Shown one piece after another: positions 17,127 to 60,546 of a stretch of DNA of 64,000 nt. Under the pieces are notes generated by a model. That model did no database searches, was not told where the DNA came from, and worked only from the letters and a program-made list of their open reading frames with translations. How positions within the stretch are numbered: the first letter of the stretch is position 1; every line of letters starts with the position of its first letter. The DNA is taken from NCBI RefSeq assembly GCF_022179465.1, contig NZ_BPQV01000007.1:1-64000 (forward strand). The letters run 5' to 3'. Origin of the DNA: Methylobacterium organophilum. GTDB lineage: Bacteria > Pseudomonadota > Alphaproteobacteria > Rhizobiales > Beijerinckiaceae. The translations under genes were made by a program, and so were the position numbers.

Positions 17127-17393
17127 TCAGTGCGCCTTCACCGCCTCGATCATCCGGGCGATGGTCTCGATCGAGTAGAAGTTGGCCGGCTTGAGGTAGG
17201 CCGGGGGAATCATGATGTCGAACGCCGCCTCGATCGCCACCATCAGGTTGACGAGATCGAGGGAGGACAGGCCGACATCCACGAGCGCGTCCTCCGGCCG
17301 GAAATCCCGGTCGCGCGCCTGCTGCGCCAGAATCTCCCGGGCGAGACCCATGGTGCGGTCCGTCACGTCGGCGGAAGCGATGTCCGTGCTCAT
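17127..17393 (-). CDS. phosphopantetheine carrier protein, putative amino acid carrier
   Basis: 88 residues, a four-helix acyl/peptidyl carrier protein. The modification site lies in DVGLSSLDLVNLM; Ser44 aligns with the phosphopantetheine serine of DSL motifs. Start at the ATG at 17393, since upstream frame extension is low-complexity. It is divergent from an operon that contains an aminoacyl-tRNA-synthetase-like amino acid:[carrier protein] ligase. In characterised Rhizobiales cases (Bradyrhizobium and Agrobacterium) such a ligase charges a small carrier protein encoded next to it, which makes this the likely acceptor; the second carrier protein at 20848 is the alternative. Confidence 0.88.
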   Translation of the reverse strand: MSTDIASADVTDRTMGLAREILAQQARDRDFRPEDALVDVGLSSLDLVNLMVAIEAAFDIMIPPAYLKPANFYSIETIARMIEAVKAH

Positions 17394-17672
17394 GGGAAAC
17401 GGTCCGGCAAAGCGCGTCGGGTCAACGTCGGCGTGATAGACTAGGGTAGTGGCGACCAAGGTGGGACACGCCCCCGGGATGGTCAACGAATTCTTTAACC
17501 CCAATCGATTCACGGTTAATTTTACGCAGTTTTTCCTACGTATTTGCGCTACCCTAAAATTCTACCGTGGCCCCCTTCGGGCCGATATAGGTTTCGTGTC
17601 ATTCTCCAACTGTTCAACCCCCGAGCGAAACAGCTCCGGCGGAACAGGATCGCAAAAATTTCGAGCGCGACC
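17394..17672. promoter_or_regulatory. divergent control region of the carrier-protein cluster
   Basis: 279 bases between divergently read genes. Its middle (about 17480-17590) is clearly richer in A and T than the surroundings. TTAACC (17495-17500) and GGTTAA (17514-17519) form a spaced inverted repeat. The position implies promoters in both directions, but I cannot assign -35/-10 boxes confidently. Confidence 0.5.
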
Positions 17673-18875
17673 ATGACGATGCAGCAGAGAGCGACATCGC
17701 CGGGGCCGGAGGCTGCGGCGGCCGACCTGCGGAGCCGGGCGGACGCGGTGGCGGCGATCGCGGCACGCCATGCCGCTGCCGTCGACCGGGACGGCCGCTT
17801 CCCCGCGGAGGCGGTCGAGGCAATGCGGGCCCAGCGCCTGCTCGGCGCGGCGATTCCCCCGGACCTCGGCGGCGAGGGAAGCTCGATCCGCGCGCTCGCC
17901 GATGTCTGCTACGCGCTGGGCCGCGCCTGTGCCTCGGCGGCGATGATCTTCGCGATGCATCAGACCAAGGTCGCCTGCCTCGTGCGCCACGGGCGCGGCG
18001 AACCCTGGCGCGAGAGCGTGATGCGCCGCATCGCCAGCGAGCAGTGGCTGATGGCCTCCTCGACCACCGAGGGCAACAACGGCGGCAATGTCCGAGTCTC
18101 GACCGCCGCGATCGAGCCGGAGGGCGACGGCATCCGCCTCGACCGGGCCGCGACGGTCATCTCCTACGGCGCCGAGGCCGATGGGGTCGTCACCGTGGCC
18201 CGCCGGACGCCGGATTCCGCCCCCTCCGACCAGGTGCTCTGCGTCTTCCTGAAGGCGGATTACAGCCTGGAGCACCTGAGCGGCTGGCAGACCCTGGGCA
18301 TGCGCGGCACCTGCAGCAGCGGCTTCCGCCTGCTCGCCCGGGGACGCCCCGAACAGGTGCTCGCCGCCCGCTACGCCGACATCCACGGCCAGACCATGAC
18401 GCCGGTCTCCCATATCCTGTGGTCGAGCGTCTGGAGCGGCATCGCCGCCTGCACGCTGGACAAGGCCCAGGCCTTCACGCGCACGGCCATGCGCGGGGCC
18501 GGCGGCGCCGCGCCGCCGGGCGCCCTGCACTATGCCCGCGCCGTCTCGAGCCTGAAGCAGGCCCGTGCCCTGATCGGCCAGGCCCTCGACCGCTTCGACG
18601 CCGCGACCGGGGACCCTGCCGCCCTCTCGGCCTTGGATTTCCAGACGGCGATCACGATGCTCAAGGTCGAGGTCTCGGAGCTCGCCGTCGCGACCGCGAT
18701 GAGCGCCCTGCGCGCCAACGGGCTCGCCGGCTACCGGGAGGACGGCCCGTTCAGCATCGGTCGCCACCTGCGCGACCTCCTCTCCGCGCCGCTCATGATC
18801 CACAACGACCGCATCCTGGCCAATCTCGCGACCGCCACTCTGATGGCCCCCGTCGCGGACTCCCTGAACGATTGA
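17673..18875 (+). CDS. acyl-CoA dehydrogenase family flavoprotein
   Basis: About 400 residues from the ATG at 17673 (a second ATG is two codons later). The all-alpha N-terminal domain (IAARHAAAVDRDGRFPAEAVEAMR, IPPDLGGEG), the FAD/substrate region ASSTTEGNNGGN, the beta-domain GWQTLGMRGTCSSGF, and the C-terminal helix SIGRHLRDLLSAPLMIHNDR match the family. Members oxidise thioester-bound substrates at the alpha-beta or alpha-N bond. Being first in the operon with an amino acid:[carrier protein] ligase, it probably acts on a carrier-bound aminoacyl thioester rather than on fatty acyl-CoA; this is inferred from context only. The aminoacyl ligase gene begins 25 bases later. Confidence 0.88.
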   Translation: MTMQQRATSPGPEAAAADLRSRADAVAAIAARHAAAVDRDGRFPAEAVEAMRAQRLLGAAIPPDLGGEGSSIRALADVCYALGRACASAAMIFAMHQTKVACLVRHGRGEPWRESVMRRIASEQWLMASSTTEGNNGGNVRVSTAAIEPEGDGIRLDRAATVISYGAEADGVVTVARRTPDSAPSDQVLCVFLKADYSLEHLSGWQTLGMRGTCSSGFRLLARGRPEQVLAARYADIHGQTMTPVSHILWSSVWSGIAACTLDKAQAFTRTAMRGAGGAAPPGALHYARAVSSLKQARALIGQALDRFDAATGDPAALSALDFQTAITMLKVEVSELAVATAMSALRANGLAGYREDGPFSIGRHLRDLLSAPLMIHNDRILANLATATLMAPVADSLND

Positions 18876-18900
18876 GCCCTTCCCGCGAGGATCGACGACC

Positions 18901-19833
18901 GTGAACATGTCCGTCACGGGCGCCCCGGCGGCGCCCCCGAAGCAGGATCCCCTCGACGCGCTGTTCGACGCGATGTTCCGGCCGATGGACGCCCAGGGCG
19001 TCTATGCGCGCACGGGCGCCTACGAATCCGTGGTGGAGGCGCTGGCCGCGCTGATCTCGGCGAAGCGCGAGGCGGAGACGGAGGTGTTCCGCTTCCCCCC
19101 CGTGATGAGCCGGGCGCATCTGGAACGGCACGGCTATCTCAAGAGCTTCCCGAACCTGCTCGGCTGCGTCTCCTGTCTCGACGGCACGGAGCAGGAGATC
19201 CTGGCCATCGCCGACCGCCACGCCACCGGCGGCGACTGGACGAGCGGGCTGACCACCGCCGACCTCGTGCTCACCCCGGCCGCCTGCTACCCGGTCTATC
19301 CGATCGCCGCCGCCCGCGGGCCGGTGCCGGAAGCCGGCTACCGCTTCGACGTGGCCTGCGACTGCTTCCGCCGGGAGCCCTCCCGGCATCTCGACCGGCT
19401 GCAATCCTTCCGGATGCGCGAATACGTCACCATCGGCACGCCGGAGCAGGTGGCCGCGTTCCGCGAGCGCTGGATCGTCAAGGCGACGGCGCTCGCCGAC
19501 CAGCTCGGGCTTCCCTACACGGTCGAGCAGGCGAGCGACCCGTTCTTCGGCCGGCTCGGCCAGATCAAGGCCTTCAGCCAGCTCGAGGCGGCCCTGAAGT
19601 TCGAGCTGCTGGTGCCCCTGCGGGGCGAGGCGGCGGGCACCGCCTGCATGAGCTTCAACTATCACCGCGAGCATTTCGGCACGACCTGGGACCTGCGCCA
19701 CGCCGATGGCGAGCCGGCCCATACCGGCTGCGTCGCCTTCGGCATGGACCGCCTCGCCGTGGCCCTGTTCGCGACCCACGGGGCCGAGATCGCGGCCTGG
19801 CCGGCCTCCGTCCGCGCCGCCCTGTCCCTCTGA
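18901..19833 (+). CDS. amino acid:[carrier protein] ligase, class II aaRS homologue
   Basis: 310 residues from a GTG at 18901 with GAGG ten bases upstream; an ATG two codons later is less well placed. Class II aminoacyl-tRNA synthetase catalytic core related to atypical SerRS: motif 2 is CDCFRREPSRHLDRLQSFRMREY (in part, residues 153-175) and motif 3 is AFGMDRLAVALF (279-290). Cys129, Glu174 and Cys277 match, in spacing, the three zinc ligands I recall for the Bradyrhizobium enzyme. No tRNA-binding arm or anticodon domain is present. Known relatives activate glycine or alanine and load it on the phosphopantetheine of a carrier protein instead of tRNA. Specificity here is not proven. Confidence 0.88.
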   Translation: MNMSVTGAPAAPPKQDPLDALFDAMFRPMDAQGVYARTGAYESVVEALAALISAKREAETEVFRFPPVMSRAHLERHGYLKSFPNLLGCVSCLDGTEQEILAIADRHATGGDWTSGLTTADLVLTPAACYPVYPIAAARGPVPEAGYRFDVACDCFRREPSRHLDRLQSFRMREYVTIGTPEQVAAFRERWIVKATALADQLGLPYTVEQASDPFFGRLGQIKAFSQLEAALKFELLVPLRGEAAGTACMSFNYHREHFGTTWDLRHADGEPAHTGCVAFGMDRLAVALFATHGAEIAAWPASVRAALSL

Positions 19834-19861
19834 CCCGGCCCCGCCGGCGCGTGGACGCGTG

Positions 19862-20851
19862 ATGCCCCTCGACCCGCACGTCAGGCGCTTCCTCGACATG
19901 ATGGCCATGGGCGTCATGGCGAAGAGCGAGACCGGAGCCGGCGACGTCGCCGGCCGCCGGGAGAGCCTGCGCGTGCTGGCCCGGCTCGCGGCCGGGGCGC
20001 TTCCGCCGGTCGAGGCCTCCGCCCGGGCGCTGCCCCTGCCCGCGGGGCCCTGCGCGGCGCGGCTCTACGTCCCCGCCGAGGCGGAGGCGACGGGCCCCGG
20101 CCTCGTCTTCTTCCATGGGGGCGGGCTGGTGGCGGGGGACCTCGACACCCATGACGGGATCTGCCGGGGCCTCGCGGCCGCCGCCGGCTGCCGGATCGTC
20201 TCCGTGGCCTATCGGCTCGCCCCCGAGCACCCCTTCCCCGCGGGGCTCGAGGACGCGATCGCCGCCTTCGCCCATGTCGCCGGCACGGCCGGCGCCTTCG
20301 GCATCGACCCGGCGCGCCTCGCCATCGGCGGCGATTCCGCCGGGGCCGGCCTCGCCGCCCGGGTCGCCCAGGAGCTGCGGGGCACCGCTGCGGCCATCGC
20401 CGCGCAGCTCCTGATCTGCCCGGTGCTCGACCTGCGCTGCGCCACATCCTCCCACCGCGACTTCGAGGAGGGCTACTTCCTCGACGGGCGCACGGTGCGG
20501 GCGGACATGGCGGCCTGCGGCGTCGCCGGACGCGCGGAGGATCCGCGGGTCTCGCCGCTGCTGGAGCCGGACCTCTCCGGCCTGCCCCCGGCCCAGATCC
20601 ACACGGCGGAATTCGACATCGTCCGCGACGACGGCGCGGCCTATGCGGAACGCCTGACCCGGGCCGGAATCCCCGCGACCTATGCCTGCCATGCGGGCAT
20701 GATCCATTTCTTCTACGGTCTCGGCCGCCTGGTGCCGAAATCGCAAACCATCCTGACCGAGATCGGAAGCGGGTTCGGCCCTCTGCTGCGCGGCGCATCC
20801 GCGGCGCGGCCCGACCTCGGCGATCGCCCGAGCCAACGGAGAGCATCATGA
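19862..20851 (+). CDS. alpha/beta hydrolase, HSL/esterase family IV
   Basis: 329 residues. The oxyanion motif HGGG is at 85-88 and the nucleophile Ser159 lies in GGDSAGAG; the acid is in AEFDIVRDDG and the histidine in AGMIHFFYG. These define hormone-sensitive-lipase-type esterases. No signal peptide, so cytoplasmic. Its stop overlaps the start of the following carrier-protein gene (ATGA), so it is coupled to it. In this operon it may hydrolyse a thioester or ester to release a product or to clear a mischarged carrier; the evidence for that is only the gene order. Confidence 0.88.
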   Translation: MPLDPHVRRFLDMMAMGVMAKSETGAGDVAGRRESLRVLARLAAGALPPVEASARALPLPAGPCAARLYVPAEAEATGPGLVFFHGGGLVAGDLDTHDGICRGLAAAAGCRIVSVAYRLAPEHPFPAGLEDAIAAFAHVAGTAGAFGIDPARLAIGGDSAGAGLAARVAQELRGTAAAIAAQLLICPVLDLRCATSSHRDFEEGYFLDGRTVRADMAACGVAGRAEDPRVSPLLEPDLSGLPPAQIHTAEFDIVRDDGAAYAERLTRAGIPATYACHAGMIHFFYGLGRLVPKSQTILTEIGSGFGPLLRGASAARPDLGDRPSQRRAS

Positions 20852-21099
20852 GCCTGCGTTCGACCATCGTCGCCGAGATCGAGGCGATCACCCGCGACAA
20901 CGACAAGACGATGCCGCCGATCACCGACGATCTCGTGCTGCTCGATACCGACTTCGATTCGCTCTGCTTCGCCCTCCTCGTCGCCCGGATGGAGGACCGC
21001 ATCGGCATCGATCCGTTCAGCGAGGTCGAGGTGGCGGACCTGCCGGTCACGGTCGGCGATCTCGTCGCGCTCTACGACCGCGCCGCCGCGGCGGCCTGA
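20848..21099 (+). CDS. acyl/aminoacyl carrier protein
   Basis: 83 residues with a phosphopantetheine site at Ser38 in DTDFDSLCFALL. Helix 1 (STIVAEIEAITRDN) and the acidic recognition helix region (MEDRIGIDP) are typical. It overlaps the preceding hydrolase gene by four bases and lies four bases before the adenylating enzyme, an arrangement like dltA/dltC-type pairs. It differs clearly from the 88-residue carrier protein at 17127 (DFDSL against LSSLD), so the cluster has two carriers that probably have different loading enzymes. Confidence 0.9.
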   Translation: MSLRSTIVAEIEAITRDNDKTMPPITDDLVLLDTDFDSLCFALLVARMEDRIGIDPFSEVEVADLPVTVGDLVALYDRAAAAA

Positions 21100-21103
21100 A
21101 GCC

Positions 21104-22471
21104 ATGTTCCTCCGCGACGGCCTGCGGCGCGCGGCGAGCCTCGACGGCCTGTTCCTGGCGGACCGGCACGGGCGGCGCCCCCTGCGCGCGATCCTGGATG
21201 CGCCCCGCCGGGCCGATCTCGGCGCGACGCTCGCCGGACGCTCGGTGCTGCTGGCGACCGGCGGCCAGATGGCTTCGGCGCGGGCGATGCTCGCCCTCGA
21301 CGGGCTGGTGCGGCGGATGGTGCTGGTGCCCCCCGGCCTGCCGGGAGACCAGATCGCCCGGATCCTGGCCGATGCCGAGATCGACCTCTGCGTCACCGAC
21401 GCGGACTACGCCCACCCGGAGGCGCTCGGTGCCCTGCCCTGCCTCGAGGCGGCGGAGGCCGCCCTCGCCCCGGAGGTGGAGACGCCGCAGCCCACGGAAT
21501 GGGTGCTGACCACATCGGGCACGACCGGCGCGCCCAAGCTCGTCGCCCACACGCTCGAAGGGCTCGCCGGCGGCATCAACACCGCGGCCGTGCCCGATCC
21601 CGGCACGGTCTGGACCACCTTCTACGACATTCGCCGCTATGGCGGCCTGCAGATCTTCCTGCGGGCGATCCTCGGCCCCGCCCCGCTCGTCCTCTCCGAT
21701 GCGGAGGAGCCGGTGCGCGACTTCATCCTGCGGGCGGCGGAGGCGGGCGTCACGCACATCCTGGGCACGCCCTCGCATTGGCGCCTCGCCCTGATGAGCG
21801 CCGCCCTGCCCCGGCTCGCGCCGCGCTACGTGCGCCTGTCGGGGGAGATCGCCGACCAAGCGATCCTCGACCTACTCCGCGCCGCCTTCCCCGAAGCGCG
21901 GATCGCCCATGCCTATGCCTCGACGGAGGGCGGCGTCGGCTTCACCGTCGAGGACGGGCGCGAGGGCTTCCCCGCGAGCCTGATCGGCGAGCGGGCCGGC
22001 ATCGAGATCGTGGTGCGCGAGGACAGCCTGCATGTGCGCTCGAAGCGTACCGGCCGCCGCTATCTCGGCGCCGAGGCCGCACCCCTCACCGACGCGGAGG
22101 CCTTCGTCGATACCGGCGACCTCGTGGAGAGACGGGGCGAGCGCTACTATTTCCTCGGCCGGCGCAGCGGCGTGATCAATGTCGGCGGTGCCAAGGTCCA
22201 GCCGGAAGAGGTCGAGACCGTCATCAACGGCCATCCGCAGGTCTCGATGTCCCGGGTGCGGGCACGGCCGAACCCGATCCTCGGCGCCGTGGTCGAGGCG
22301 GAGGTGGTCCTGCGCGAGCCCTCGGCCGCGGCGACGGACCCGGCCGCGCTGAAGAGCGCCATCATCGCCCATTGCCGGCCCCACCTCGCCAAGCACAAGG
22401 TGCCGGTGAGCGTGCGGTTCGTGCCCGACCTGCCGCTCTCCTCCGGCGGCAAGCTGCTGCGGAGACCCTGA
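21104..22471 (+). CDS. ANL-superfamily adenylate-forming enzyme
   Basis: 455 residues, shorter than usual because the N-terminal lobe is reduced. The P-loop TTSGTTGAPK is at 136-145, and YASTEGG, DTGDLVERRGERYYFLGRR and INVGGAKVQPEEVE follow. The catalytic lysine of the C-terminal motif is Lys450 in SSGGKLLRR. It should adenylate a carboxylate and transfer it to a thiol; the adjacent carrier protein (four bases upstream) is the obvious acceptor. The substrate cannot be read reliably. Its stop overlaps the SDR start (TGATG). Confidence 0.9.
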   Translation: MFLRDGLRRAASLDGLFLADRHGRRPLRAILDAPRRADLGATLAGRSVLLATGGQMASARAMLALDGLVRRMVLVPPGLPGDQIARILADAEIDLCVTDADYAHPEALGALPCLEAAEAALAPEVETPQPTEWVLTTSGTTGAPKLVAHTLEGLAGGINTAAVPDPGTVWTTFYDIRRYGGLQIFLRAILGPAPLVLSDAEEPVRDFILRAAEAGVTHILGTPSHWRLALMSAALPRLAPRYVRLSGEIADQAILDLLRAAFPEARIAHAYASTEGGVGFTVEDGREGFPASLIGERAGIEIVVREDSLHVRSKRTGRRYLGAEAAPLTDAEAFVDTGDLVERRGERYYFLGRRSGVINVGGAKVQPEEVETVINGHPQVSMSRVRARPNPILGAVVEAEVVLREPSAAATDPAALKSAIIAHCRPHLAKHKVPVSVRFVPDLPLSSGGKLLRRP

Positions 22472-23205
22472 TGAGCGAGCGCCGCACCGTCATCGTCACC
22501 GGGGCGAGCCGGGGCATCGGCCTCGCCATCGCCTCGGCGCTGGCCGCGGACGGCTTCCGCGCCGTCGCCGTGGCCCGCCGCGCCTCGGACGCCTTCGAGG
22601 CGGCGGCGGCGCAGGCGGAAAGCGGGGCGATGCATTTCACGGCCTGCGACCTCGGCCAGACCGAGGCGCTGCAGCCGCTGGTGCGCCGCATCCGGGCCGA
22701 GCACGGGCCGATCTACGGCCTCGTCAACAACGCCGCCATCGGCACGCCCGGGCTGCTCGCGACCATGCCCGACCGGGAGATCGCCGAGCTGGTCACGCTC
22801 AACACCCTCGCCCCGATGCTGCTCACGAAATACGTGGCGCGGGGGATGATGGCAGCGGGCGCCGGCCGCATCGTCAATGTCAGCTCGATCATCGCCTTCA
22901 CCGGCTACAACGCCCTGTCGGTCTATGCCGCGACCAAGGCCTCAATGATCGGCTTCACCCGGTCCCTCTCCCGCGAGGTCGGCCGCCTCGGCGTCACCGT
23001 GAACGCCGTCGCCCCGGGCTTCATCGAGACGGCGATGACGGAGGGCATAGACGAAGCCGAGCGCGACCGCGTCGCCAAGCGCAGCGCCCTGCGCCGCCTG
23101 CCGGCCCCGGAGGACGTGGCCCATGCCGTCGCCTACCTGATGTCCGACAAGGCCCGGAACGTGACCGGCACGGTGCTGACGGTGGATGCGGGCAGCACGG
23201 CTTGA
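22471..23205 (+). CDS. SDR family oxidoreductase (FabG-like)
   Basis: 244 residues of the classical short-chain dehydrogenase type. The nucleotide motif TGASRGIG is at 10-17, NNAA at 86-89, the catalytic Ser at 138-139 (NVSS), and Tyr152/Lys156 in YAATK. An Arg after the glycine motif (ASRG) favours NADP(H). FabG-like enzymes reduce 3-oxoacyl thioesters on carrier proteins, which suits its place as the last gene of an operon with two carrier proteins. Starts on the last base of the preceding stop codon. Confidence 0.9.
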   Translation: MSERRTVIVTGASRGIGLAIASALAADGFRAVAVARRASDAFEAAAAQAESGAMHFTACDLGQTEALQPLVRRIRAEHGPIYGLVNNAAIGTPGLLATMPDREIAELVTLNTLAPMLLTKYVARGMMAAGAGRIVNVSSIIAFTGYNALSVYAATKASMIGFTRSLSREVGRLGVTVNAVAPGFIETAMTEGIDEAERDRVAKRSALRRLPAPEDVAHAVAYLMSDKARNVTGTVLTVDAGSTA

Positions 23206-23400: not shown

Positions 23401-24084
23401 ATGCATGTCGGTGAGGAATTTGACCGAGCAAAGCATATCATAGAACTCGCACTCAATCCTCACGCCTATATATCTTACTCTCAGTTTGGCGAAGATCTTT
23501 TAATAGATATTATATTTCACGGAAAAACAGATCCTGGTTTTTATGTCGACGTGGGCGCGCACCATCCGAAGAGGCTGTCAAATACCTATCTGTTATACAA
23601 AAAAGGCTGGCGCGGCATCAACATTGAGGGCGACCCGAACCTCATAAAGCTTTTCGAAATTGAGCGCCCCGAGGATATAAATATCCCTGCTTTCGTTTCC
23701 GACAAATCCGAAAGCGTCGTTTTCAACCGTTTCAATGATACCGCCGTCAACACCATCTCCGCGGAAAAGAAGGCTTTCTACGCCTCCCGATGGGACATCG
23801 TCTCAAGTGAACAGATCACGACGCGACCGCTACGCGAGCTGCTTGACGAGCACATGCCCTCCGGCCGCACGATCGATCTGCTATCCGTCGATGTCGAAGG
23901 TGTCGACCTCAAAGTTCTTCAGGGAAACGACTGGAATCGCTATCGCCCGCGCCTCGTCATCGTCGAAGCCGAGGACCTCGATCTCATGCGGGCTGCCGAT
24001 CACCCGATCGTCGCGTTCCTAGGACAGCAAGGATACAGATTGAGCGAGAAGCTGCACGTTTCGGCTTTCTTCCTGAGAAATTAG
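23401..24084 (+). CDS. FkbM family methyltransferase
   Basis: 227 residues. The SAM-binding motif FYVDVGAHHP is near 48-56, with an acidic residue in NIEGDPN (Glu76) and the post-motif LLSVDVEGVDLKVL. FkbM proteins O-methylate sugars of polysaccharides, glycolipids or secondary metabolites. The first 500 bases are strikingly AT-rich and use rare codons such as ATA and TTA, unlike neighbouring genes, suggesting recent acquisition. A DUF4214-like/GT2 gene follows after 13 bases, so the pair likely modifies a surface glycan. Confidence 0.88.
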   Translation: MHVGEEFDRAKHIIELALNPHAYISYSQFGEDLLIDIIFHGKTDPGFYVDVGAHHPKRLSNTYLLYKKGWRGINIEGDPNLIKLFEIERPEDINIPAFVSDKSESVVFNRFNDTAVNTISAEKKAFYASRWDIVSSEQITTRPLRELLDEHMPSGRTIDLLSVDVEGVDLKVLQGNDWNRYRPRLVIVEAEDLDLMRAADHPIVAFLGQQGYRLSEKLHVSAFFLRN

Positions 24085-24097
24085 GAGACGGAGCCAA

Positions 24098-25471
24098 ATG
24101 CTGTCGCCCGAACAGATCATCGGCGCATTCAATACGATCCTTCTCCGCGACCCCGATGGGCCTGAGCAGATCAGGTGGTGGCAGGATCATGGCATCAATC
24201 TTCGACATCTTCGCGACGGCCTGCTCGAATCCGAAGAATATCGCATCATGCGCGACCGCGAACGGATGGCCAAGACCGCCGCATCGCAGAGCTTCGAAAC
24301 CGCACACCGGCTCATCGAAAAGCATTTCGGTGTCGTCCCTGAGAAGGCATCGGGATCCGCCCCGGCATCCCGGGACATCGCGCGGGCCCTGCGAGGCTTG
24401 GTCGAAAGGTCCGTTCCAAGTCTCGTCCTGGCACTCGGTGGCGAGACGGCGGAGCAATACGCGTGCTTCCTTGCATCCTGCGCGCAGAGCCCGACCATCG
24501 TCGTGAGCAACGCGACAACCGGGGAGTCACCGAGCGGTGTGGTTCGGGTTCCCGTTCCGGATCGCATGCTGCTCCACATCCTCGCCGGAGCCGAGATCAC
24601 ACCGGGACTCGCCGTGCTCAGGGCAGTGAAGCCGGAAGAGGCGCGAACCGCCTATCTGAGCCTGCCGGAAGTCGGCGCGATGATCTGCCTGCCTCCCTTC
24701 GATGCGGCCCTACGCGATGCACTCGACGGCGCCAGAGCGCTCGTATGGGGCGATGCCCTCCACATCGATGGGCACCTGCTGATCACCAAGGCAGTCTGGC
24801 CATTCTGCGTCGACTATCCGTCGGCACCGGAGCCGGCAACGGAAACCTTCGCCGGCCCGACCATCGCCCTGGCGGCCATCGTGAAGAACGAGGAGCGGCG
24901 CATTGCGAAGATGCTGCGCTCCTGCGCCGGGTTGGTAAGCCACGTCACGCTGGTCGATACAGGCTCGACCGATGGCACCCTCGACCAAGCCCGTGCCGCA
25001 CTCGGCGATATGAAGGTGCCCTACAATATCGAGCACATCACCTTCATCGATTTCGCTCAGGCGCGGAATGCCGCGATTGCGGCGGTCCCCTCGTCCTGTG
25101 CGTGGATCCTCATGCTCGATGCGGACGAGTTCATCACGCCGACCGATGCACGGCGTCTCGCAGAGCTGACGACGTCCGGTGATGCGGACGCCTACGCACT
25201 GCCACGTTACAATCTGTGCGATGAGCTCGGGACACTCGGCCGCTATCCGGATCGACAGGCCCGATTCTTTCGAAACGCGCCCGACAGGCTACACTTTCGC
25301 AATCCTGTCCACGAAGCGCTCATCACGGCTGGGCGCCTCGGGTTTCCGCAAGCGAACATGGTGGCAATCGGCGGCTCGATGGGCGGCCCCCACATCCACC
25401 ATGACGCGAAGATGAGCGTCGACGTGTTCGCCGAGAAATCCTCGTTCTACAAACGCTTATCCAGTCAATGA
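24098..25471 (+). CDS. glycosyltransferase family 2 with DUF4214-like N-terminus
   Basis: 457 residues. Residues 1-60 (LLRDPDGPEQIRWW, LRDGLLESEEY) resemble a DUF4214 module, found on secreted or glycan-related proteins. A middle region of about 180 residues has no clear match. The C-terminal half is a SunS-like GT2 domain: IALAAIVKNEERRI, TLVDTGSTDGT and the DxD-type LMLDADEFIT. TAGGAGACGGAG precedes the ATG. It probably works with the adjacent FkbM methyltransferase. The DNA is closer to normal composition than the FkbM gene, so the two may have different histories. Confidence 0.82.
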   Translation: MLSPEQIIGAFNTILLRDPDGPEQIRWWQDHGINLRHLRDGLLESEEYRIMRDRERMAKTAASQSFETAHRLIEKHFGVVPEKASGSAPASRDIARALRGLVERSVPSLVLALGGETAEQYACFLASCAQSPTIVVSNATTGESPSGVVRVPVPDRMLLHILAGAEITPGLAVLRAVKPEEARTAYLSLPEVGAMICLPPFDAALRDALDGARALVWGDALHIDGHLLITKAVWPFCVDYPSAPEPATETFAGPTIALAAIVKNEERRIAKMLRSCAGLVSHVTLVDTGSTDGTLDQARAALGDMKVPYNIEHITFIDFAQARNAAIAAVPSSCAWILMLDADEFITPTDARRLAELTTSGDADAYALPRYNLCDELGTLGRYPDRQARFFRNAPDRLHFRNPVHEALITAGRLGFPQANMVAIGGSMGGPHIHHDAKMSVDVFAEKSSFYKRLSSQ

Positions 25472-25538
25472 CATCGGACGGCCAGGGAGAGAGAGCGAGG
25501 CCCGCTCACCCTCTTCAGCCGATGCGTGCCGCCAGTCT

Positions 25539-26138
25539 CTAAGGCAGCGGCACGCTTCCGAACTGGCCGAGGCGGTAGACGAGCGAGTCGGCCTCCTCGC
25601 GGGCGAGGCGCACCTCGCGCACGGCGCCGAGCAGGATCGCGTGGCTGTGGCGCTCGATCACCTCGTCGAGCTCGCAATCGATCAGCGCCTGCGCGCCGGC
25701 GAGGCCGAAGGCGCCCGAGCGCATCGGGACCCAGTCCGCGCCCTCGTAGCGGGCGGGACCGCGCAAGGCGCCGATCCCGGCGAAGCGCTCGGCCACGTCC
25801 TGGTGCTCGGCGCCGAGGACGCTCACGCAGAAATGCCGGCGCCGGGCGATGACCGGCCAGGTCGACGAGGCGCGGTTGACGCAGACGAGCATGGTCGGCG
25901 GGTCGACGGAGAGGGAGACGGCAGAGGTGGCCGTCATGCCGACGCGCTCCTCGCCCGTTCCCGCCGTGACGACCACGACGCCCCCGGCCAGGCGGCGCAT
26001 CGCCATCTTCATCAGCGCCGCGCTCGCGAGCGGATTGGCGATCTCTCTGATCGGAACGTTCATCCCATCGTCCTCCGCTCGCGTCCCCTCGAAGCCGTCC
26101 GGTGAAAGGGGGCCTCGCCCCGTCGTCGCCTCGGCCAT
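25539..26138 (-). CDS. flavin reductase domain protein
   Basis: 199 residues from the ATG at 26138, which overlaps the flippase stop by one base; another ATG at 26063 begins at MNVPIREIANP and is also possible. The flavin-reductase-like split barrel is shown by MRRLAGGVVVVTAG, GMTATSAVSLSVDPPTMLVCVNR and ERHSHAILLGAV. Members supply reduced FMN or FAD to two-component monooxygenases. No monooxygenase is adjacent; the coupling to a flippase gene is unexplained. Confidence 0.88.
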   Translation of the reverse strand: MAEATTGRGPLSPDGFEGTRAEDDGMNVPIREIANPLASAALMKMAMRRLAGGVVVVTAGTGEERVGMTATSAVSLSVDPPTMLVCVNRASSTWPVIARRRHFCVSVLGAEHQDVAERFAGIGALRGPARYEGADWVPMRSGAFGLAGAQALIDCELDEVIERHSHAILLGAVREVRLAREEADSLVYRLGQFGSVPLP

Positions 26139-27532
26139 CACCGCGCCTCCGCCGGCACCGGGCGCCGAGCCGCGTCGCGATGCGGCGCTTCGGCCTCCGC
26201 CAGGGCCGCCACCGATTCCAGCACGCGCCGGTCGGCGCGGCGGGCGAGGCGCCGGAAATGGCGGGCCGACCAGAGGAAGGTCGCAAGTTCGGACGCCGCC
26301 AGGCCCATCAGGGCGAAGGGCGCGGGCCGCGTGAGCAGGATCGGGATCATGATCGCGAAACCGAGGATCGCGGCGGCGATGGCCCCCCAGGCGATGGTCC
26401 GGAAGGCCGCGGAGGCCTCCAGATACGCGCGGGGGATGGCGTAGAGAAGCGAGATCGTCACCACGCTCCACACGCCGAAGCCGATCCAGTTCATGGGCTC
26501 GTGGCTGAAGCGGCCCTTGAACAGGGAATGCTCGATCAGGGGCAGAAGCCCCCACATCGCGGCCCCGTAGACGAGGCAGGCGACGGCGATCACCACGGTG
26601 GAGCGCACCACGATCCAGTAGGCGGGGCGCATCCTGCCCTGAGCGAGCAGCGCCGTGATCTCGGCGAGCACCATGTTGGTGAGCGCGTTGGTGGGGATGC
26701 GCAGGGGCGCGAACAGCACCAGGGTCGCGGCGATCGGCGCGTAGCTCGCCGGCCCGACGATCGTGGCGAAGGCGAGGGTCAGCCCCTGCCCCTGCACGGT
26801 GATGCTGGTGACGCCGGTGAGCGACCACAGAAGGGTGCGCCACAGGGCGAGATAGCGCCGCCAGAGCGAGCGTCGCAGGGTGAAGCGCAGGGGCCGGCGC
26901 AGCGCCAGATAGGACACGCCGATGCCCGCGGCATGGGCGAGGGCGAGCGACAGGAAGGCATGGTCGAGGAGAACGACGTCGCTCCCGTGCAGGCTCGCCA
27001 GCGCGAAGACCAGGCCGAGGCCGGCATAGACCGCGTCGCTCAGGCCGGCGATCCGAGAGGCCTTCCGGGCGAGCAGCACGATGCGCAGGTAGCTGCGGAA
27101 GGCGTAGAGGGCGATGAAGGCCCCGGCCGCGAGGGCACCGGAGCCGATGACGGGCACGAGCGCCGCCACGGCGAGGAGGCCCATGCCGAGGGCCACGACG
27201 AGGGCGCCCGAGCCGAACACCACGTCGTAGCCGCGCTCGGCCGGACGGCCGAGGCTGCGCGAGAGGAACAGGGTCGCCGGCACCGCGACGAGGGCGCGGA
27301 TATAGGCGATGCCCACCGCGCCGCTGGTGAACACGATGGCGAACAGCCCGTAATCGTGCTGGCTGAGAGTCCGCACGAGCACGATATTCAGGACGAAATG
27401 GAACAGGCTCTGGATCAGCTCGCCCGACAGGATCACGGCGAAGCGGCTTCCGAAGCCGCCACGCCCTCCCGCCGCCGCCGAGGCTTTGGCGGACAGGCGG
27501 CCGAGCACGGACGCGGTCAGACTCGCGATCAT
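26138..27532 (-). CDS. polysaccharide flippase-like membrane protein (MOP/Wzx-type)
   Basis: 464 residues with about twelve hydrophobic helices and a basic C-terminal tail. The N-terminal LSGELIQSLFHFVLNIVLVRTLSQHDYGLFAIVFTSG (part) is the pattern of oligosaccharide flippases: a long first helix pair ending in a YGLFA motif. These proteins move lipid-linked sugars across the inner membrane. With the nearby FkbM and glycosyltransferase genes it points to a surface polysaccharide. It is on the opposite strand from them, so it is not in the same transcript. Confidence 0.82.
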   Translation of the reverse strand: MIASLTASVLGRLSAKASAAAGGRGGFGSRFAVILSGELIQSLFHFVLNIVLVRTLSQHDYGLFAIVFTSGAVGIAYIRALVAVPATLFLSRSLGRPAERGYDVVFGSGALVVALGMGLLAVAALVPVIGSGALAAGAFIALYAFRSYLRIVLLARKASRIAGLSDAVYAGLGLVFALASLHGSDVVLLDHAFLSLALAHAAGIGVSYLALRRPLRFTLRRSLWRRYLALWRTLLWSLTGVTSITVQGQGLTLAFATIVGPASYAPIAATLVLFAPLRIPTNALTNMVLAEITALLAQGRMRPAYWIVVRSTVVIAVACLVYGAAMWGLLPLIEHSLFKGRFSHEPMNWIGFGVWSVVTISLLYAIPRAYLEASAAFRTIAWGAIAAAILGFAIMIPILLTRPAPFALMGLAASELATFLWSARHFRRLARRADRRVLESVAALAEAEAPHRDAARRPVPAEAR

Positions 27533-27759
27533 GCCGAGACGCCCCGCATTGCCTTTCTCTCCTCGCGCCGCCCCGTTCCTCGGGGTTCTGCCGGAGGACC
27601 GGATCCCGGGCCCCGTGCCGAACCGATATTGGCCCGCTTATCGGCCCCTAAAGAGCAAGTTCGAGACCCCCTTCAAGGGCACGAACTGTGTGGATCCGAC
27701 ACGGGATCCGTCCCTGTAACGAGACGGTTGTGCCGACCGGGGACGGACGAGGGCGACGC

Positions 27760-28662
27760 ATGACGACGCAAGCTGAAGGTCTTTCCGATGCCATCAAGCC
27801 GTCTCCGACGGATCCGGTGCAACGGCGCTCCGTACGCTGCCGGAAGATCGAGGCGCAGGATCTCGATGCCCTGGCGCTCCTGCTGGCACAGGGCTTCCCG
27901 GTCCGCGACGCGGCATCCTGGCGCGCGTCTCTCGAACGGATCCACGCCTGGACAAAGGCGGAAGCCCTGCCCGGAATGGGCTTCGTGCTCGCCGAAGGAG
28001 ACAGGCTGGTCGGAAGCCTGCTGACGGTCTACGCGGCCGGCGGCCGGCGTTGCAGCGTCTCGAGCTGGTACGTGGCCGAAGGCTATCGCCGCTACAGCAT
28101 GACCCTCGTGAGCGCCGCATTGCGCGATCGCTCGGTGATCTATCTCAACATCTCGGCGGAGCGCTACACCGCGCCGATCATCAAGGCACAGGGCTTCGTC
28201 TGCTACAACGAGGGCGTCGCGCTGGCCGCCCCGCTCCTGGCGCTGCCGCGGTTCGGCGGCGCCGAGGTCCTCTGGGAGACGCCCGACGGCGCGTTCGACC
28301 TCGACCCGGCCGAGGTCGCGCTCATGGAGCATCACAGGCGGCTCGGCTGCGTCGCCTTCTGGTGCCTCACTGGCGGAAAGGCCTATCCCTTCGTGGTGGC
28401 GCGGCGGATGGTCCGGGGCCGTCTCCCGATCGCCCAGGTGATCTATTGCGCGGCAGAGACCGACTGGAGGCTCCTGTCGCCGGCGATCGGCCGTGCGCTC
28501 GCACGCCACGGCCTGTTCCTGCTCGTGCTCGACGCGAACGGCCCGGTGCCGGGCCTGCCCAGCCGCTTCCTGCCCGGCCGCATGCCGAAATATTTTCGCG
28601 GCACGCAGGCGCCCCGGCTGGGCGACCTCGCTTATACGGAAGCGGCGCTGATCGGGACCTGA
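27760..28662 (+). CDS. GNAT-like acyltransferase domain protein
   Basis: 300 residues from the ATG at 27760. The N-terminal 160 residues look like a degenerate GNAT fold: CRKIEAQDLDALALLLAQGFP, then VGSLLTVYAAGGRRCSVSSWYVAEGYRRYS, which replaces the acetyl-CoA pyrophosphate loop, and ISAERYTAPIIKAQGF. A C-terminal half with LPSRFLPGRMPKYFRGTQAP is not assigned. Relatives occur near polysaccharide genes, so a role in glycan acylation is possible but not shown. Start separated from the divergent flippase by about 230 bases. Confidence 0.6.
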   Translation: MTTQAEGLSDAIKPSPTDPVQRRSVRCRKIEAQDLDALALLLAQGFPVRDAASWRASLERIHAWTKAEALPGMGFVLAEGDRLVGSLLTVYAAGGRRCSVSSWYVAEGYRRYSMTLVSAALRDRSVIYLNISAERYTAPIIKAQGFVCYNEGVALAAPLLALPRFGGAEVLWETPDGAFDLDPAEVALMEHHRRLGCVAFWCLTGGKAYPFVVARRMVRGRLPIAQVIYCAAETDWRLLSPAIGRALARHGLFLLVLDANGPVPGLPSRFLPGRMPKYFRGTQAPRLGDLAYTEAALIGT

Positions 28663-28809: not shown

Positions 28810-30495
28810 ATGCACGACACAGACGGATCCCGACCCCGCAGCGCCGCCCAGGCGCTCGTCGACCAGCTCGTGGTCAACGGCGTGACCCACGTCTTCACCG
28901 TGCCCGGCGAGAGCTTCCTGCCGGTGCTCGACGCGCTCTACGATTCCGGCATCAATGTCACGGTCTGCCGCCAGGAGGGCGGCGCGGCGATGATGGCGGA
29001 GGCCCATGGCAAGGCCACGGGCCGGCCGGGCATCTGCTTCGTCACCCGGGGGCCGGGGGCGACCAATGCCTCGGCGGGCATCCACATCGCCCAGCAGGAT
29101 TCGACGCCGATGATCCTGTTCGTCGGGCAGGTCGAGCGCTCCCTGCGCGACCGCGAGGCCTGGCAGGAGGTCGATTACCGCGCCGCCTTCGGGCCGATCG
29201 CCAAATGGGCGACCGAGATCGACCAGGGCGCCCGGGTGCCGGAATATGTCTCCCGCGCCTTCCACGCCGCCACCGGTGGACGGCCCGGCCCGGTGGTGGT
29301 GGCGCTGCCCAAGGACATGCTGAAGGAGGCCGCGCCGGGACCGCTGGCGCCCGCCTTCGTACCAGTCGAGGCCGCGCCCGGCCCCGAGGAGATGGAGCGG
29401 CTCGCCGCCCTTCTCGCGGAGGCGGAGAGCCCGTTCCTGCTGCTCGGCGGAAGCCGCTGGAGCGCACAGGCCTATGCGGAGATCCGCAGCTTCGCGGAGC
29501 GCTTCGACCTGCCGGTCGCCACGAGCTATCGCCGGCTGCCGCTCTTCGATCCGCTGCACCCGAACTACGCGGGCGATCTGGGGCTCGCCGCCAATCCGAA
29601 GCTCGTTGCCCGGGCGAAGGCCGCCGACCTGCTGATCGTCCTCGGCGGCCGCCTCGGCGAGGTCGCGAGCCAGACCTACAGCCTGCTCGAAATCCCGGGG
29701 CCGCGGACCCGGCTCGTCCATATCCATCCGGGGCCGGAGGAGCTCGGACGGGTCTACGTGCCCCATCTCGGAATCGTGGCCACACCGACCCGCATGGCTG
29801 CCGCCCTGGCGCAGCTCGCGCCGCCCCCCGCGAAGCCCTGGTCCGATCAGGCCCGGGCGGCCCATGCGGACTACCTCGCCTGGAGCGAGACGGCGACGCC
29901 GCAGCCGGGCCCGGTCAATCTCGGCGCGGTGATGGTCCATCTGCGCGCGGCGCTGCCCGAGGACGCGATCCTCTGCAACGGCGCCGGCAACTACGCGGCC
30001 TGGATCCACCGCTTCTACCGCTTCCGCCGGTTCGCCACCCATCTGGCGCCGACCTCCGGCTCCATGGGCTACGGCGTGCCCGCGGCGGTAGGGATGAAGC
30101 GCCTCCACCCGGAGCGGGTGGTGGTCTCCCTCAACGGCGACGGCGACTTCCTGATGAACGGCCAGGAATTCGCGACCGCCGTGCAATACGGGCTCAACAT
30201 TCTCTTCATCGTCGCGGACAATGCGAGCTACGGCACGATCCGCATGCACCAGGAGCGGGATTTCCCGGGCCGCGTCTGCGCGACCGACCTCGTGAACCCG
30301 GATTTCGCCGCCTATGCCCGGGCCTTCGGCGGCTTCGGCGTCACGGTCGAGCGCACGGAGGATTTCCCGGCCGCCCTCGAAGCTGCCCGCGCCTCCGATC
30401 AGCCCGCGATCATCCACCTCAAGATGTCCACCGACGCGATCGCACCGGGCATGACGCTCACCGCGATCCGGGAGAAGGCGCTGGCGGTACGGTGA
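28810..30495 (+). CDS. thiamine diphosphate enzyme, acetolactate-synthase-like
   Basis: 561 residues with the three-domain layout of the acetolactate synthase superfamily. The ylide-activating Glu56 lies in RQEGGAA, and FTVPGESF precedes it. The ThDP/Mg motif is NGDGDFLMNGQEF, about 28 residues long in its usual GDG...N form. No regulatory subunit gene is adjacent, so it is unlikely to be the main IlvB. It may be a 2-oxo-acid decarboxylase or carboligase of unknown substrate. It faces a branched-chain-aminotransferase-like gene across 165 bases, which hints at keto acid metabolism. Confidence 0.85.
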   Translation: MHDTDGSRPRSAAQALVDQLVVNGVTHVFTVPGESFLPVLDALYDSGINVTVCRQEGGAAMMAEAHGKATGRPGICFVTRGPGATNASAGIHIAQQDSTPMILFVGQVERSLRDREAWQEVDYRAAFGPIAKWATEIDQGARVPEYVSRAFHAATGGRPGPVVVALPKDMLKEAAPGPLAPAFVPVEAAPGPEEMERLAALLAEAESPFLLLGGSRWSAQAYAEIRSFAERFDLPVATSYRRLPLFDPLHPNYAGDLGLAANPKLVARAKAADLLIVLGGRLGEVASQTYSLLEIPGPRTRLVHIHPGPEELGRVYVPHLGIVATPTRMAAALAQLAPPPAKPWSDQARAAHADYLAWSETATPQPGPVNLGAVMVHLRAALPEDAILCNGAGNYAAWIHRFYRFRRFATHLAPTSGSMGYGVPAAVGMKRLHPERVVVSLNGDGDFLMNGQEFATAVQYGLNILFIVADNASYGTIRMHQERDFPGRVCATDLVNPDFAAYARAFGGFGVTVERTEDFPAALEAARASDQPAIIHLKMSTDAIAPGMTLTAIREKALAVR

Positions 30496-30660: not shown

Positions 30661-31527
30661 TCACCCGAGCCTGTGATGCGCGAAGTCCCAGTAGAGCTGG
30701 CGGGCGCGGCGGAAGAGCGGGCCGGGCTCGAAGCGGATCTCGTCGAGGCCGATGACCGGGGCGACCTTGGCGAAGTTGCCGGCGGTGAAGACCTCGTCGG
30801 CATGGAGGAAGTCCGCGTAGGCGAGCGTCTTCTCCACCACCGTGACGCCGTCGCCGCGCAGGAGGTCGATCACCCGCGCCCGGGTGATGCCGGCGAGGAA
30901 GGTACCGTTGGGAACCGGTGTGTAGACCACCCCGTCCCTGGCGAAGAAGGCGTTGGCGTTGGCGAACTCGGCGATGTTGCCGAGCCCGTCGCGCATCAGG
31001 CAGTTGCCGAAGCCCCGCGACAGGGCCTCCGTGAGCGCCCGGGCGCCGTTGGGGTAGAGGCAGCCCGCCTTGGCATCCACCGGCGCCACCTCGATCGAGG
31101 GGCGGCGGAAGGGGGAGAGCGTCGCCTTGACGCCCGAAGGCAGCGGCATCGGCGCGTGATACAGGCAGAGGCACCAATTGGTGGACTCGGGATCGAAGCG
31201 CACGCCGCCGGCGAAGCCCGATTCCGCCCAGTACATCGGCCGGATGTAGAGCTCGGCCCCGTCGGGGAAGCGGGCGAGCCCCTCGCGCACGAGGGCGTCC
31301 CATTCCGCGACGCTCAGCTTGGGCTTGAGCCCCAGGGCCGTGGCGGAGCGGTTGACCCGGGCGAGGTGCCGGTCGAGGTCGGGCGTCATCCCCTCGAAGG
31401 CACGGGCCCCATCGAAGACCGTGGAGGCGAGCCAGGCGCCATGCGTGCGCGGCCCCATGATCCGCACGTTCCCCGGGTGCCAGGCGCCCTCGAAAAAGGT
31501 CCAGGTGTCCGGGTCCGGTGCCGTCAT
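30661..31527 (-). CDS. class IV aminotransferase, branched-chain type
   Basis: 288 residues of the fold-type IV PLP family. The Schiff-base lysine is Lys153 in VDAKAGCLYPN. ASTVFDGARAFEG, LYIRPMYWAE and NIAEFANANAFFARDG (the phosphate/PLP region) match branched-chain aminotransferases, while FTAGNFAKVAPVI is the C-terminal signature. Branched-chain and D-amino-acid aminotransferases and ADC lyases share this fold; the length and the ARAFEG segment favour a BCAT-like activity. Convergent with the TPP enzyme. Confidence 0.88.
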   Translation of the reverse strand: MTAPDPDTWTFFEGAWHPGNVRIMGPRTHGAWLASTVFDGARAFEGMTPDLDRHLARVNRSATALGLKPKLSVAEWDALVREGLARFPDGAELYIRPMYWAESGFAGGVRFDPESTNWCLCLYHAPMPLPSGVKATLSPFRRPSIEVAPVDAKAGCLYPNGARALTEALSRGFGNCLMRDGLGNIAEFANANAFFARDGVVYTPVPNGTFLAGITRARVIDLLRGDGVTVVEKTLAYADFLHADEVFTAGNFAKVAPVIGLDEIRFEPGPLFRRARQLYWDFAHHRLG

Positions 31528-31618: not shown

Positions 31619-32068
31619 TCAGGCCGCCTCGGTGGCGCCGATCTGGAAGCCGCCGGCAGTGGCGGGCTTGCGCCTCAGCATCCGGCCGATCCGGCCGGTC
31701 GCGCGCAAGGCGAAGCCGACGACCTTGGGCGTGGTGCGGCGGCAGAAGGCGACCTTCTTGACGTAGGTCTCGACGTGCCAGTCGCACACCGCACCGCGGG
31801 GCAGGAACAGCACGTCGCCCGGTCCGAAGGTCCTGGCCGGATTATGGCCGTCGGAGATCGTGGCCGAACCTTCGAGGAAGTAGATCGTCTCGTCGATCTC
31901 GTAGATCCACTGGAACTTGCCCGCCGTGCAGTCCCAGACCAGGGTGCTGGCGAGACCGTCGTCGCTGCGCGAGAGCGTCGCGTTGCGGGCGACCGGTGTC
32001 CCCTCGCGGATCCAGCTCGGCTCGATCGGGGCCGACCTCAACTCCACGGAGGTCACGGAAGGAATCAT
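31619..32068 (-). CDS. cupin domain protein
   Basis: 149 residues from the ATG at 32068; a GTG at 32089 is an alternative. A single cupin_3-like domain: KFQWIYEIDETIYFLEGSATISD and FGPGDVLFLPRGAVCDWHVE. The usual His ligands of motif 1 are replaced (YEIDETIYFLEG), as in the EutQ/(S)-ureidoglycine-type DUF861 subgroup. The C-terminal tail is basic (RIGRMLRRKP). It follows the aminotransferase gene's upstream side on the same strand, 91 bases apart. Function unknown. Confidence 0.75.
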   Translation of the reverse strand: MIPSVTSVELRSAPIEPSWIREGTPVARNATLSRSDDGLASTLVWDCTAGKFQWIYEIDETIYFLEGSATISDGHNPARTFGPGDVLFLPRGAVCDWHVETYVKKVAFCRRTTPKVVGFALRATGRIGRMLRRKPATAGGFQIGATEAA

Positions 32069-32503
32069 CGGTTTCGTCGCCAAGGCCACCCCCCTTTGCG
32101 GATGAAGGCAGCGCTCGGAACCGTCCGAAAAGCTGCTTCGCGAGAAAGAGCGGGAATCTTCCCCCAACACAAGTGCCGGCGAAGCACATCATTAACGCGA
32201 TCACAGAGAATCTGCGATCGCACCGCACGATTGTACTGTTTTCGCCATTATTGACCTGTGCCCCTGAGGGACATCTGTTTCACCGCGGGATGGAAATCCG
32301 CATTCGCGCGGGGGGCCTTCGACCTCAGCCTTGCCTGCCGCGCGAGGACGTTCACCTCGGGCGGGGCGTTTCCGTAGGGGAAATCCCGCGCCGCGCCCTT
32401 TCACCACCTTCCGAAACCGGTCGTCTCCATTTGATACGGCGGCTGCTGGTGTGTGCCTTGCTGTGAAGGCCATCGAGCCCTGCGCCCGGAGGCGAATCGT
32501 CCC
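32069..32503. other. gene-free divergent interval upstream of metY
   Basis: About 435 bases between the cupin gene and metY, read away from each other, so promoters for both are expected here. A less GC-rich patch lies near 32190-32260. I looked for a SAM-II or other SAM riboswitch ahead of metY and could not recognise one. No credible coding frame is seen. Confidence 0.6.
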
Positions 32504-34849: not shown

Positions 34850-34865
34850 GCCTCCCTCGACCGAC

Positions 34866-38463: not shown

Positions 38464-38606
38464 GGGTCCGGCTCCGTGCCCCGCGCGACCGCGCGCTTGG
38501 CCGGACAACGCACGGAACCTCCGCCGGACCCGGACAGCCGGCATGCTTTCGACACATGAGGGGCGGCCCATACTCCTCAAAGGTTGCATGGGCCGCGGGC
38601 CGCCGC

Positions 38607-43331: not shown

Positions 43332-43513
43332 CGTGACCTCTGGTCACGGCGGTTGCTACTGGCAACCTAGGGTCTCGCTCTGTCAAGCATGACGGCGACA
43401 AAATCCGCTGCCCCGTTTTGTTGGAGGCCGCCCCCCGGCCCGGCCTAGCGTCCGGGCGTCGCGGAGGGCGCTCGGGCCCTCCGCCTCGGATCCCGATGCG
43501 GAGCGTGCGTCAG

Positions 43514-60458: not shown

Positions 60459-60546
60459 GAAGGAACTCCTCGTCCGTCACCCCTGCGACGGCGGATCCGG
60501 CCCGGCCCGCTTGCCGCGCCCGGCGGGCCGGCTAGAGTCGGGCGCC

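Follow-up and report, generated by a model that had tools for sequence, protein, structure and literature searches.

Gene content of the locus

We analyzed a 64,000-nucleotide stretch of DNA from Methylobacterium organophilum (contig NZ_BPQV01000007.1, positions 1 to 64,000; here called the window) that carries seven genes around an amino acid:[carrier protein] ligase. An earlier note, made from the sequence alone, had read these genes as a compact route that loads an amino acid on a carrier protein and oxidizes it while tethered. Profile searches bore out all seven families with their coordinates and order, as follows.

17127..17393, (-): CP1, aminoacyl carrier protein (PP-binding; the open reading frame opens at 17513; Ser44 is the attachment serine)
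17673..18875, (+): ACAD, flavoenzyme with the acyl-CoA dehydrogenase fold, proposed oxygenase of glycyl-S-CP1 (Pfam PF02771, N-terminal; PF00441, C-terminal)
18901..19833, (+): AACPL, amino acid:[carrier protein] ligase, Bll0957 ortholog, glycine predicted as substrate (NF005479)
19862..20851, (+): EST, hormone-sensitive-lipase-type alpha/beta hydrolase (Abhydrolase_3, E 4.4e-63)
20848..21099, (+): CP2, second carrier protein (PP-binding below cut-off, E 0.013; serine in FDSL)
21104..22471, (+): AMPL, stand-alone adenylate-forming enzyme, proposed loader of CP2 (PF00501 and PF13193)
22471..23205, (+): SDR, FabG-like reductase (PF13561/PF00106)

Motifs and spacing were read off the window sequence. 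EST carries HGG and GDSAG, and SDR carries YxxxK. Six of the genes are codirectional with gaps of at most 28 bp, and CP1 is divergent. ACAD and AACPL are 25 bp apart, as the earlier note had estimated, and AACPL and EST 28 bp. The note had tied the last four genes together by overlapping stops and starts; this holds for EST/CP2 (ATGA) and AMPL/SDR (TGATG) but not for CP2 and AMPL, which are separated by a gap of 4 bp. The reported lack of a megasynthase was confirmed, as the annotated cluster proteins include no condensation domain, no fusion of an adenylation domain to a peptidyl carrier protein (A-PCP), and no multidomain A-PCP-C module of a nonribosomal peptide synthetase (NRPS).

The earlier note treated the seven genes as the full gene set, but more belong to it. 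The conserved set extends to about position 36650 and adds a flavin reductase (FRED), an acyltransferase (GNAT), a thiamine pyrophosphate (TPP) enzyme, an aminotransferase, MetY, MetA, and an acyl-CoA ligase. The genes beyond SDR are as follows.

23401..27532: interruption between SDR and GNAT, with an FkbM methyltransferase, a GT2 glycosyltransferase, a flippase-like gene, and FRED among its genes
25539..26063, (-): FRED, flavin reductase of the FerA/HpaC/RutF type, proposed partner of ACAD (NCBIfam E 8.4e-29, below equivalog cut-offs)
27688..28662, (+): GNAT, tandem-GNAT N-acyltransferase
28810..30495, (+): TPP enzyme, acetolactate-synthase-like (PRK08199)
30661..31527, (-): BCAT, class IV aminotransferase (PRK13356)
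31619..32170, (-): CUP, EutQ-like cupin (PF05899)
32453..33796, (+): MetY, O-acylhomoserine sulfhydrylase-type pyridoxal phosphate enzyme (TIGR01326, above cut-off)
33854..34849, (+): MetA, homoserine O-acyltransferase (NF003776, above cut-off)
34554..36650, (+): FADD, acyl-CoA synthetase (PRK08279; NF006134 at 751 bits, cut-off 625; start uncertain, as the profile match opens at residue 115 of the open reading frame)

In neighbor clustering, the window genes from 27.7 to 36.7 kb that recur in related loci are a protein with no Pfam match at E 0.001, the TPP enzyme, the aminotransferase, the cupin, MetY, MetA, and the acyl-CoA synthetase. Seven Methylobacterium/Methylorubrum loci (L008, L010, L011, L013, L015, L016, and L017) contain all 15 families as one contiguous set, in the order FADD-META-METY-CUP-BCAT-TPP-FRED-CP1-ACAD-AACPL-EST-CP2-AMPL-SDR-GNAT, where FADD is truncated at the edge of the fetched stretch. 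The seven genes therefore appear to be part of a conserved bacterial pathway of about fifteen genes, and the existence of such a pathway around a known ligase, as a new variant, has strong comparative support, while the evidence for its chemistry and product is weak.

Next to the end of the cluster, at 36730-38589 (-), lies a second TPP enzyme, of the ubiquinone-dependent pyruvate dehydrogenase type, which does not recur among the fetched loci.

Conservation and co-inheritance

We compared the best 80 of at least 577 confirmed relatives, a set biased to close ones, and a panel of 15 loci intended to hold one per genus (two might share a genus). A panel gene counted as present if it passed a fixed identity threshold no more than 10 kb from the ligase, and cuts at contig ends score as misses. 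The counts rest on tblastn, except for the 62 loci of neighbor cluster 3; the GC-based gene caller gave some spurious open reading frames and misses the SDR and flavin reductase of the window. The CP1-ACAD-AACPL trio was present in all 80 of the best loci, and CP2, AMPL, and SDR occurred together, in either orientation, in 21 of these and in 12 of the 15 panel loci. Across the panel, ACAD was found in 14 loci; CP1, CP2, AMPL, and SDR in 12 each; GNAT in 11; the TPP enzyme in 10; EST and MetY in 8 each; BCAT in 7; FADD in 6; MetA in 5; and CUP in 4 or 5. Gene order varies widely in this panel. One locus (L152), from a genome related at class level only, has twelve of these families together on a single stretch. 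The earlier note had suggested a search of related genomes for the same set and order, and had counted a lack of joint conservation against itself; the genes are conserved together, and their order often differs.

The ligase matches among 299 related genomes comprised clade I, with at least 60% identity (41 genomes), a paralogous clade II with 46 to 56%, and a few remote or partial matches with 32 to 36%; among the matches listed, those near E 1e-4 look like ordinary seryl-tRNA synthetases (SerRS). AMPL (1e-60) was found in 45 of the 299 genomes, comprising all 41 with clade I versus 4 of 258 others (G080, G118, G126, and G158), and GNAT (1e-15) in 50, again 41/41 versus 9/258. Within the genus of the window, AMPL was present in 25/25 genomes with clade I and 1/87 without, and GNAT in 25/25 and 3/87, respectively. 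At genus level, all 12 ligase genera fall within the 14 AMPL genera, out of 124. The co-occurrence of ligase, AMPL, and GNAT persists where the genes lie on separate contigs. In a 63-genome panel, MetA was found in all 24 genomes with clade I, and among the 39 without it was strong in 2 (G118 and G158) and weak in 2 more (G201 and G263). A sample of the class (289 genomes, 7 with a ligase match at 1e-40) included three genomes with a clade I ligase (G000, G112, and G437), all with AMPL.

The locus consists of two modules, CP1-ACAD-AACPL and CP2-AMPL-SDR, which are separate in some genomes. In G213 and G288, the ligase adjoins GNAT as in Bradyrhizobium, and FADD-CP2-AMPL-SDR is located elsewhere in the genome. 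CP2 adjoins AMPL in all 12 panel loci that have either one. The CP2 serine (DSL) is kept in 51/51 aligned rows, and the TSGT motif and C-terminal Lys450 of AMPL are kept in 46/46. Aligned rows here and below are the window plus fetched relatives, near-duplicates included; the distinct fetched rows number 122 of 131 for ACAD, 122 of 131 for AACPL, 91 of 94 for CP1, 46 of 50 for CP2, and 45 of 45 for AMPL. The CP2/GNAT part can also stand alone. G542 carries MetY-MetA-FADD-SDR-AMPL-CP2-GNAT and G484 carries CP2-AMPL-SDR-GNAT (with a weak MetA elsewhere, 3.7e-27), both with no ligase match at 1e-40. The CP1-ACAD-AACPL module, hereafter the glycine arm, was never seen without the CP2/GNAT core in the genomes searched. 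Because the core occurs alone and the glycine arm was not seen to do so, the glycine arm presumably supplies or tailors something for the core.

Two rearrangements were seen in single loci or genera. In L149 (G145:C1:3180000-3199900), CP1-ACAD, GNAT, and FADD lie about 63 kb from the clade I ligase, so that this genome has the cluster in two pieces. In one genus (L097:13998-14708 and L098:4225-4920), a glutamine-amidotransferase-like gene, recognized by eye, adjoins GNAT in place of the TPP enzyme.

Ligase and its likely carrier protein

AACPL scored 465.7 bits against NF005479 (cut-off 357), matched Bll0957 (3mey) with a phmmer E of 4.5e-143, and is 67 to 70% identical to the ligases of Bradyrhizobium loci. 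It is 310 amino acids long, is matched by SerRS profiles over their C-terminal core only, and has no tRNA-binding region. Cys129 and Cys277, which we take to be metal-site cysteines, are kept in 132/132 aligned rows. The best match of CP1 was 4h2s_C, the carrier crystallized with Bll0957 (phmmer E 9.1e-18; other aminoacyl carriers about 1e-4), and its attachment serine is kept in 95/95 rows. By sequence comparison, AACPL and CP1 are orthologs of Bradyrhizobium Bll0957 and its carrier, and hence of an already known kind, which upholds the earlier description of a tRNA-synthetase-derived ligase with its own carrier protein. CP1 is the likely partner of AACPL because it is the ortholog of the cocrystallized carrier. 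Glycine, reportedly the substrate of Bll0957, is the predicted substrate of AACPL. The accessible part of PMC9437257 describes such ligases as loading glycine, alanine, or serine onto carriers. An assignment to the cispentacin pathway was rejected, as CP1 reaches just 34 of 80 bits on its acyl carrier protein profile.

The ligase of Bosea sp. Leaf344 (L018) is 80% identical to that of the window, compared with 69 to 70% for Rhodopseudomonas ligases. The flippase gene of the window also adjoins the cluster in this Bosea locus, as it does in L146. The ligase identity together with the shared flippase suggests gene transfer between Bosea and the lineage of the window. In Bradyrhizobium, a single genus read by eye, the methionine-salvage genes mtnA/mtnP adjoin CP1, which is uninformative.

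Predicted chemistry of the ACAD-fold enzyme

The fold of ACAD is supported by its Pfam domains, an AlphaFold2 (AF2) model with a pLDDT of 90.4, and Foldseek, in which the top match was the monooxygenase DszC. The catalytic glutamate of the YEGT motif is replaced by Ile376 in the window, and by Ile or Val in 132/132 aligned rows (122 distinct); the comparison concerns the YEGT position, as distinct from the alternative glutamate position of isovaleryl-CoA-type enzymes. DszC-type enzymes use a separate flavin reductase. A flavin reductase gene lies within the cluster in 13 fetched loci, the window included, and five panel genomes have one at a distance of 60 to 135 bp from MetA. Because the YEGT glutamate is replaced, glycine has no beta carbon, and some of the loci have a flavin reductase close by, ACAD seems likelier to oxygenate glycyl-S-CP1 than to desaturate it. 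The earlier proposal of oxidation on the carrier therefore stands insofar as a candidate enzyme adjoins the ligase, but oxygenation is the likelier reaction rather than acyl-CoA-dehydrogenase chemistry.

Proposed pathway and alternative explanations

We give about an even chance to the view that these genes encode one conserved pathway of discrete enzymes with two carriers and with a glycine arm, an acyl arm, and a supply arm. In the glycine arm, AACPL would form glycyl-AMP and then charge CP1, and ACAD would oxygenate the tethered glycyl group with reduced flavin, most likely at the nitrogen or the alpha carbon; in some genomes, the reduced flavin would come from the cluster's own flavin reductase. 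In the acyl arm, a carboxylic acid would be loaded on CP2 by AMPL and then reduced by SDR, and the tandem GNAT would transfer the CP2-bound acyl group to an amine. The supply arm would convert homoserine to a gamma-substituted 2-aminobutyrate via MetA and MetY. Rhizobitoxine-type chemistry was considered for MetY as a conjecture and set aside. The aminotransferase, TPP enzyme, esterase, and acyl-CoA ligase may supply or trim intermediates, and the final acceptor would be a free amino acid or a surface sugar. The comparisons show the gene content, its conservation and co-inheritance, the families, the conserved residues, and the folds; from these we infer glycine as the substrate, the ACAD chemistry, the carrier used by GNAT, and the order of all steps.

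The coupling enzyme is probably GNAT, which lies outside the seven-gene interval, rather than the esterase. Its AF2 model aligns with tandem GNATs over 240 to 252 residues, with two GNAT domains in a single chain. Glycyl-S-CP1 as its sole acceptor was rejected, as GNAT occurs with CP2-AMPL-SDR in G484 and G542, which have no ligase match at 1e-40. A more specific version, which we put forward as a speculation that is distinctly unlikely to hold in full, is that ACAD is a monooxygenase that N-oxygenates the tethered glycine, that the tandem GNAT replaces a condensation domain by joining the acyl group of CP2 to an amine, and that with an O-acylhomoserine this yields an N-O- or N-linked, N-acylated amino acid. 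If true, the cluster would be a nonmodular counterpart of an NRPS, with NRPS-type parts limited to the carriers and one adenylating enzyme.

Several observations weigh against the single-pathway reading. Which amino acid is loaded, which reaction ACAD catalyzes, and which donor GNAT uses are predictions. Comparing folds does not tell an oxygenase from a dehydrogenase, with the best rows nearly tied. Nor is a flavin reductase indispensable: among 25 ligase-bearing genomes searched, 8 carry the gene within or next to the cluster, 5 carry it elsewhere only, and 12 gave no match at 1e-20. The co-occurrence tests (Fisher values) ignore shared ancestry. The TPP enzyme and aminotransferase families are widespread, also in genomes that lack the cluster, so that their presence proves nothing, and 6 genomes have GNAT but lack both AMPL and a clade I ligase. 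It is conceivable that two or more unrelated operons are merely neighbors and that MetA-MetY is an ordinary methionine route, since MetY, the TPP enzyme, and the aminotransferase are common families and MetY-MetA form a separate pair in several loci. We nevertheless consider this very improbable. The co-occurrence is kept across separate contigs, the clustering recurs, reordered, in distant genera, including G437, which is kin at class level only, and MetA was not found in 35 of the 39 panel genomes without a clade I ligase, which presumably make methionine otherwise.

Two further alternatives concern individual steps. ACAD could be a true dehydrogenase that forms an imine from glycyl-S-CP1 by oxidizing its N-C(alpha) bond, similar to the oxidation of tethered amino acids by prolyl-carrier dehydrogenases and CaeB1/ColB1. 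We regard this as unlikely, given the Ile or Val at the YEGT position in every row, the missing beta carbon of glycine, DszC at the top of the Foldseek matches, and the flavin reductase in part of the clusters; according to the available part of PMC8149447, moreover, CaeB1 uses E372 as the likely base for alpha,beta-dehydrogenation. The other alternative, a minority possibility to which we give somewhat more weight than to a dehydrogenase, is that an amino sugar in a surface polysaccharide receives the acyl or aminoacyl group of the cluster from GNAT, in line with a 2010 prediction for the paralogous Atu2573 system. This reading defines the acceptor and does not conflict with the two-carrier architecture. 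Genes of the Wzc/Wzz-like, Wzy-like, or GINT1_N type occur in the vicinity of the cluster in 16 fetched clade I loci (L003, L005, L008-L011, L013, L015-L020, L096, L097, and L146), mostly of Methylobacterium/Methylorubrum and Bosea with two other genera; L097 also has a WecG-type transferase and a flippase-like gene, and L143 has sugar-nucleotide genes. However, the four polysaccharide queries gave no match in any fetched locus of Rhodopseudomonas or Bradyrhizobium, nor in L093, L095, L098-L105, and L152, the neighbors of L043, L095, L101, L103, and L104, read by eye, include no polysaccharide genes, and a sugar acceptor leaves MetA/MetY unexplained.

Some related observations were made on surface-glycan genes. 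In L003, L005, L018, L096, and L097, a GINT1_N-domain protein of about 510 amino acids adjoins CP1 or SDR and may be a cluster-linked surface-glycan transferase. L155 (NZ_CP042265.1:286123-311307, a Qingshengfaniella plasmid) carries a glycosyltransferase, an acyltransferase, an acyl carrier protein, an adenylate-forming enzyme (39.5% identical to AMPL), and an SDR near glucan genes. A polysaccharide deacetylase was rejected as a fixed member, with E <1e-60 in 5 of 154 loci and a weak match in L114; of the three queries used, two derived from loci in which it had been spotted beforehand. Elsewhere in the window, the genes for an iron-containing redox enzyme (PF14518) and a FeeM-like N-acyl amino acid synthase (PF13444; PF21926 below cut-off) overlap at 43418-45095, possibly as a separate small acylation locus, and a FemAB-like/GNAT-domain protein (PF04339, E 2e-159) adjoins an M20 peptidase at 60511-61770.

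The cluster suggests that common plant-associated bacteria carry out unexplored chemistry on glycine bound to a carrier. With this gene list, the long-open function of such ligases becomes testable, with the second carrier module, the acyltransferase, the probable oxygenase, and the homoserine branch as candidate partners.

Comparison with known systems

In the open-licence literature, a scope that leaves most subscription papers outside, we found no description of the full gene set, no pathway for carrier-protein amino acid ligases with solved structures, including the Bll0957 pair, and no ACAD-fold flavin oxygenase that acts on a carrier-bound amino acid. The closest system is Bll0957 with aminoacyl carrier protein 1 (PDB 3mey and 4h2s), to which the window ligase and carrier are orthologous. 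The Bll0957 locus also resembles the window in that the acyl-CoA dehydrogenase gene bll0958 is next door by locus number. A phaR-mutant table in the accessible part of PMC10888616 gives raised values for bll0957, bll0958, and the branched-chain aminotransferase gene bll7459. Unlike the Bll0957 pair as described, the window pair sits with CP2-AMPL-SDR, GNAT, MetA/MetY, and others.

For ACAD, CaeB1/ColB1 and, by profile names, the prolyl-carrier dehydrogenases share the fold and act on a carrier-bound amino acid. However, CaeB1/ColB1 are part of NRPS/polyketide synthase lines, where their substrate is cysteine, and the glutamate missing in the window enzyme is retained in CaeB1 (PMC8149447, available part). 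The Group D flavin monooxygenases (DszC and the nitrososynthases KijD3/DnmZ) and the dioxygenase TdaE also have the same fold, and ACAD shares with the Group D two-component monooxygenases the absence of the YEGT glutamate in this fold. The named Group D enzymes and TdaE act on free or nucleotide-bound substrates or, for TdaE in the available text, on a CoA ester, in contrast to the carrier-bound glycine proposed here.

The Atu2573-type cluster (clade II, 46 to 56% identity) has an ACAD-ligase pair, usually with a carrier protein, as in the window. Iyer and Aravind noted this neighborhood in 2010 and, in the accessible part of PMC2922099, predicted transfer of an amino acid to a cell-surface sugar amine and a redox enzyme that is probably a monooxygenase. 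The genome of the window has such a paralogous CP-ACAD-ligase trio as a second copy (L106, G000:C8:129800-149600; G000:C8:139252; ligase 52%, match from 9453 (-)) with a two-part alpha/beta hydrolase nearby. Most clade II loci read have DUF1839 and a GH2-like protein beside the ligase; the corresponding neighbor clusters, c4 and c3, occur in 16 and 22 of 40 loci, both clades pooled. DUF1839 had no match among the window cluster proteins scanned and was present in the scanned clade II locus. Clade II loci thus carry DUF1839, GH2-like, and alpha/beta hydrolase genes, whereas clade I loci have GNAT, the CP2 module, and the homoserine branch instead.

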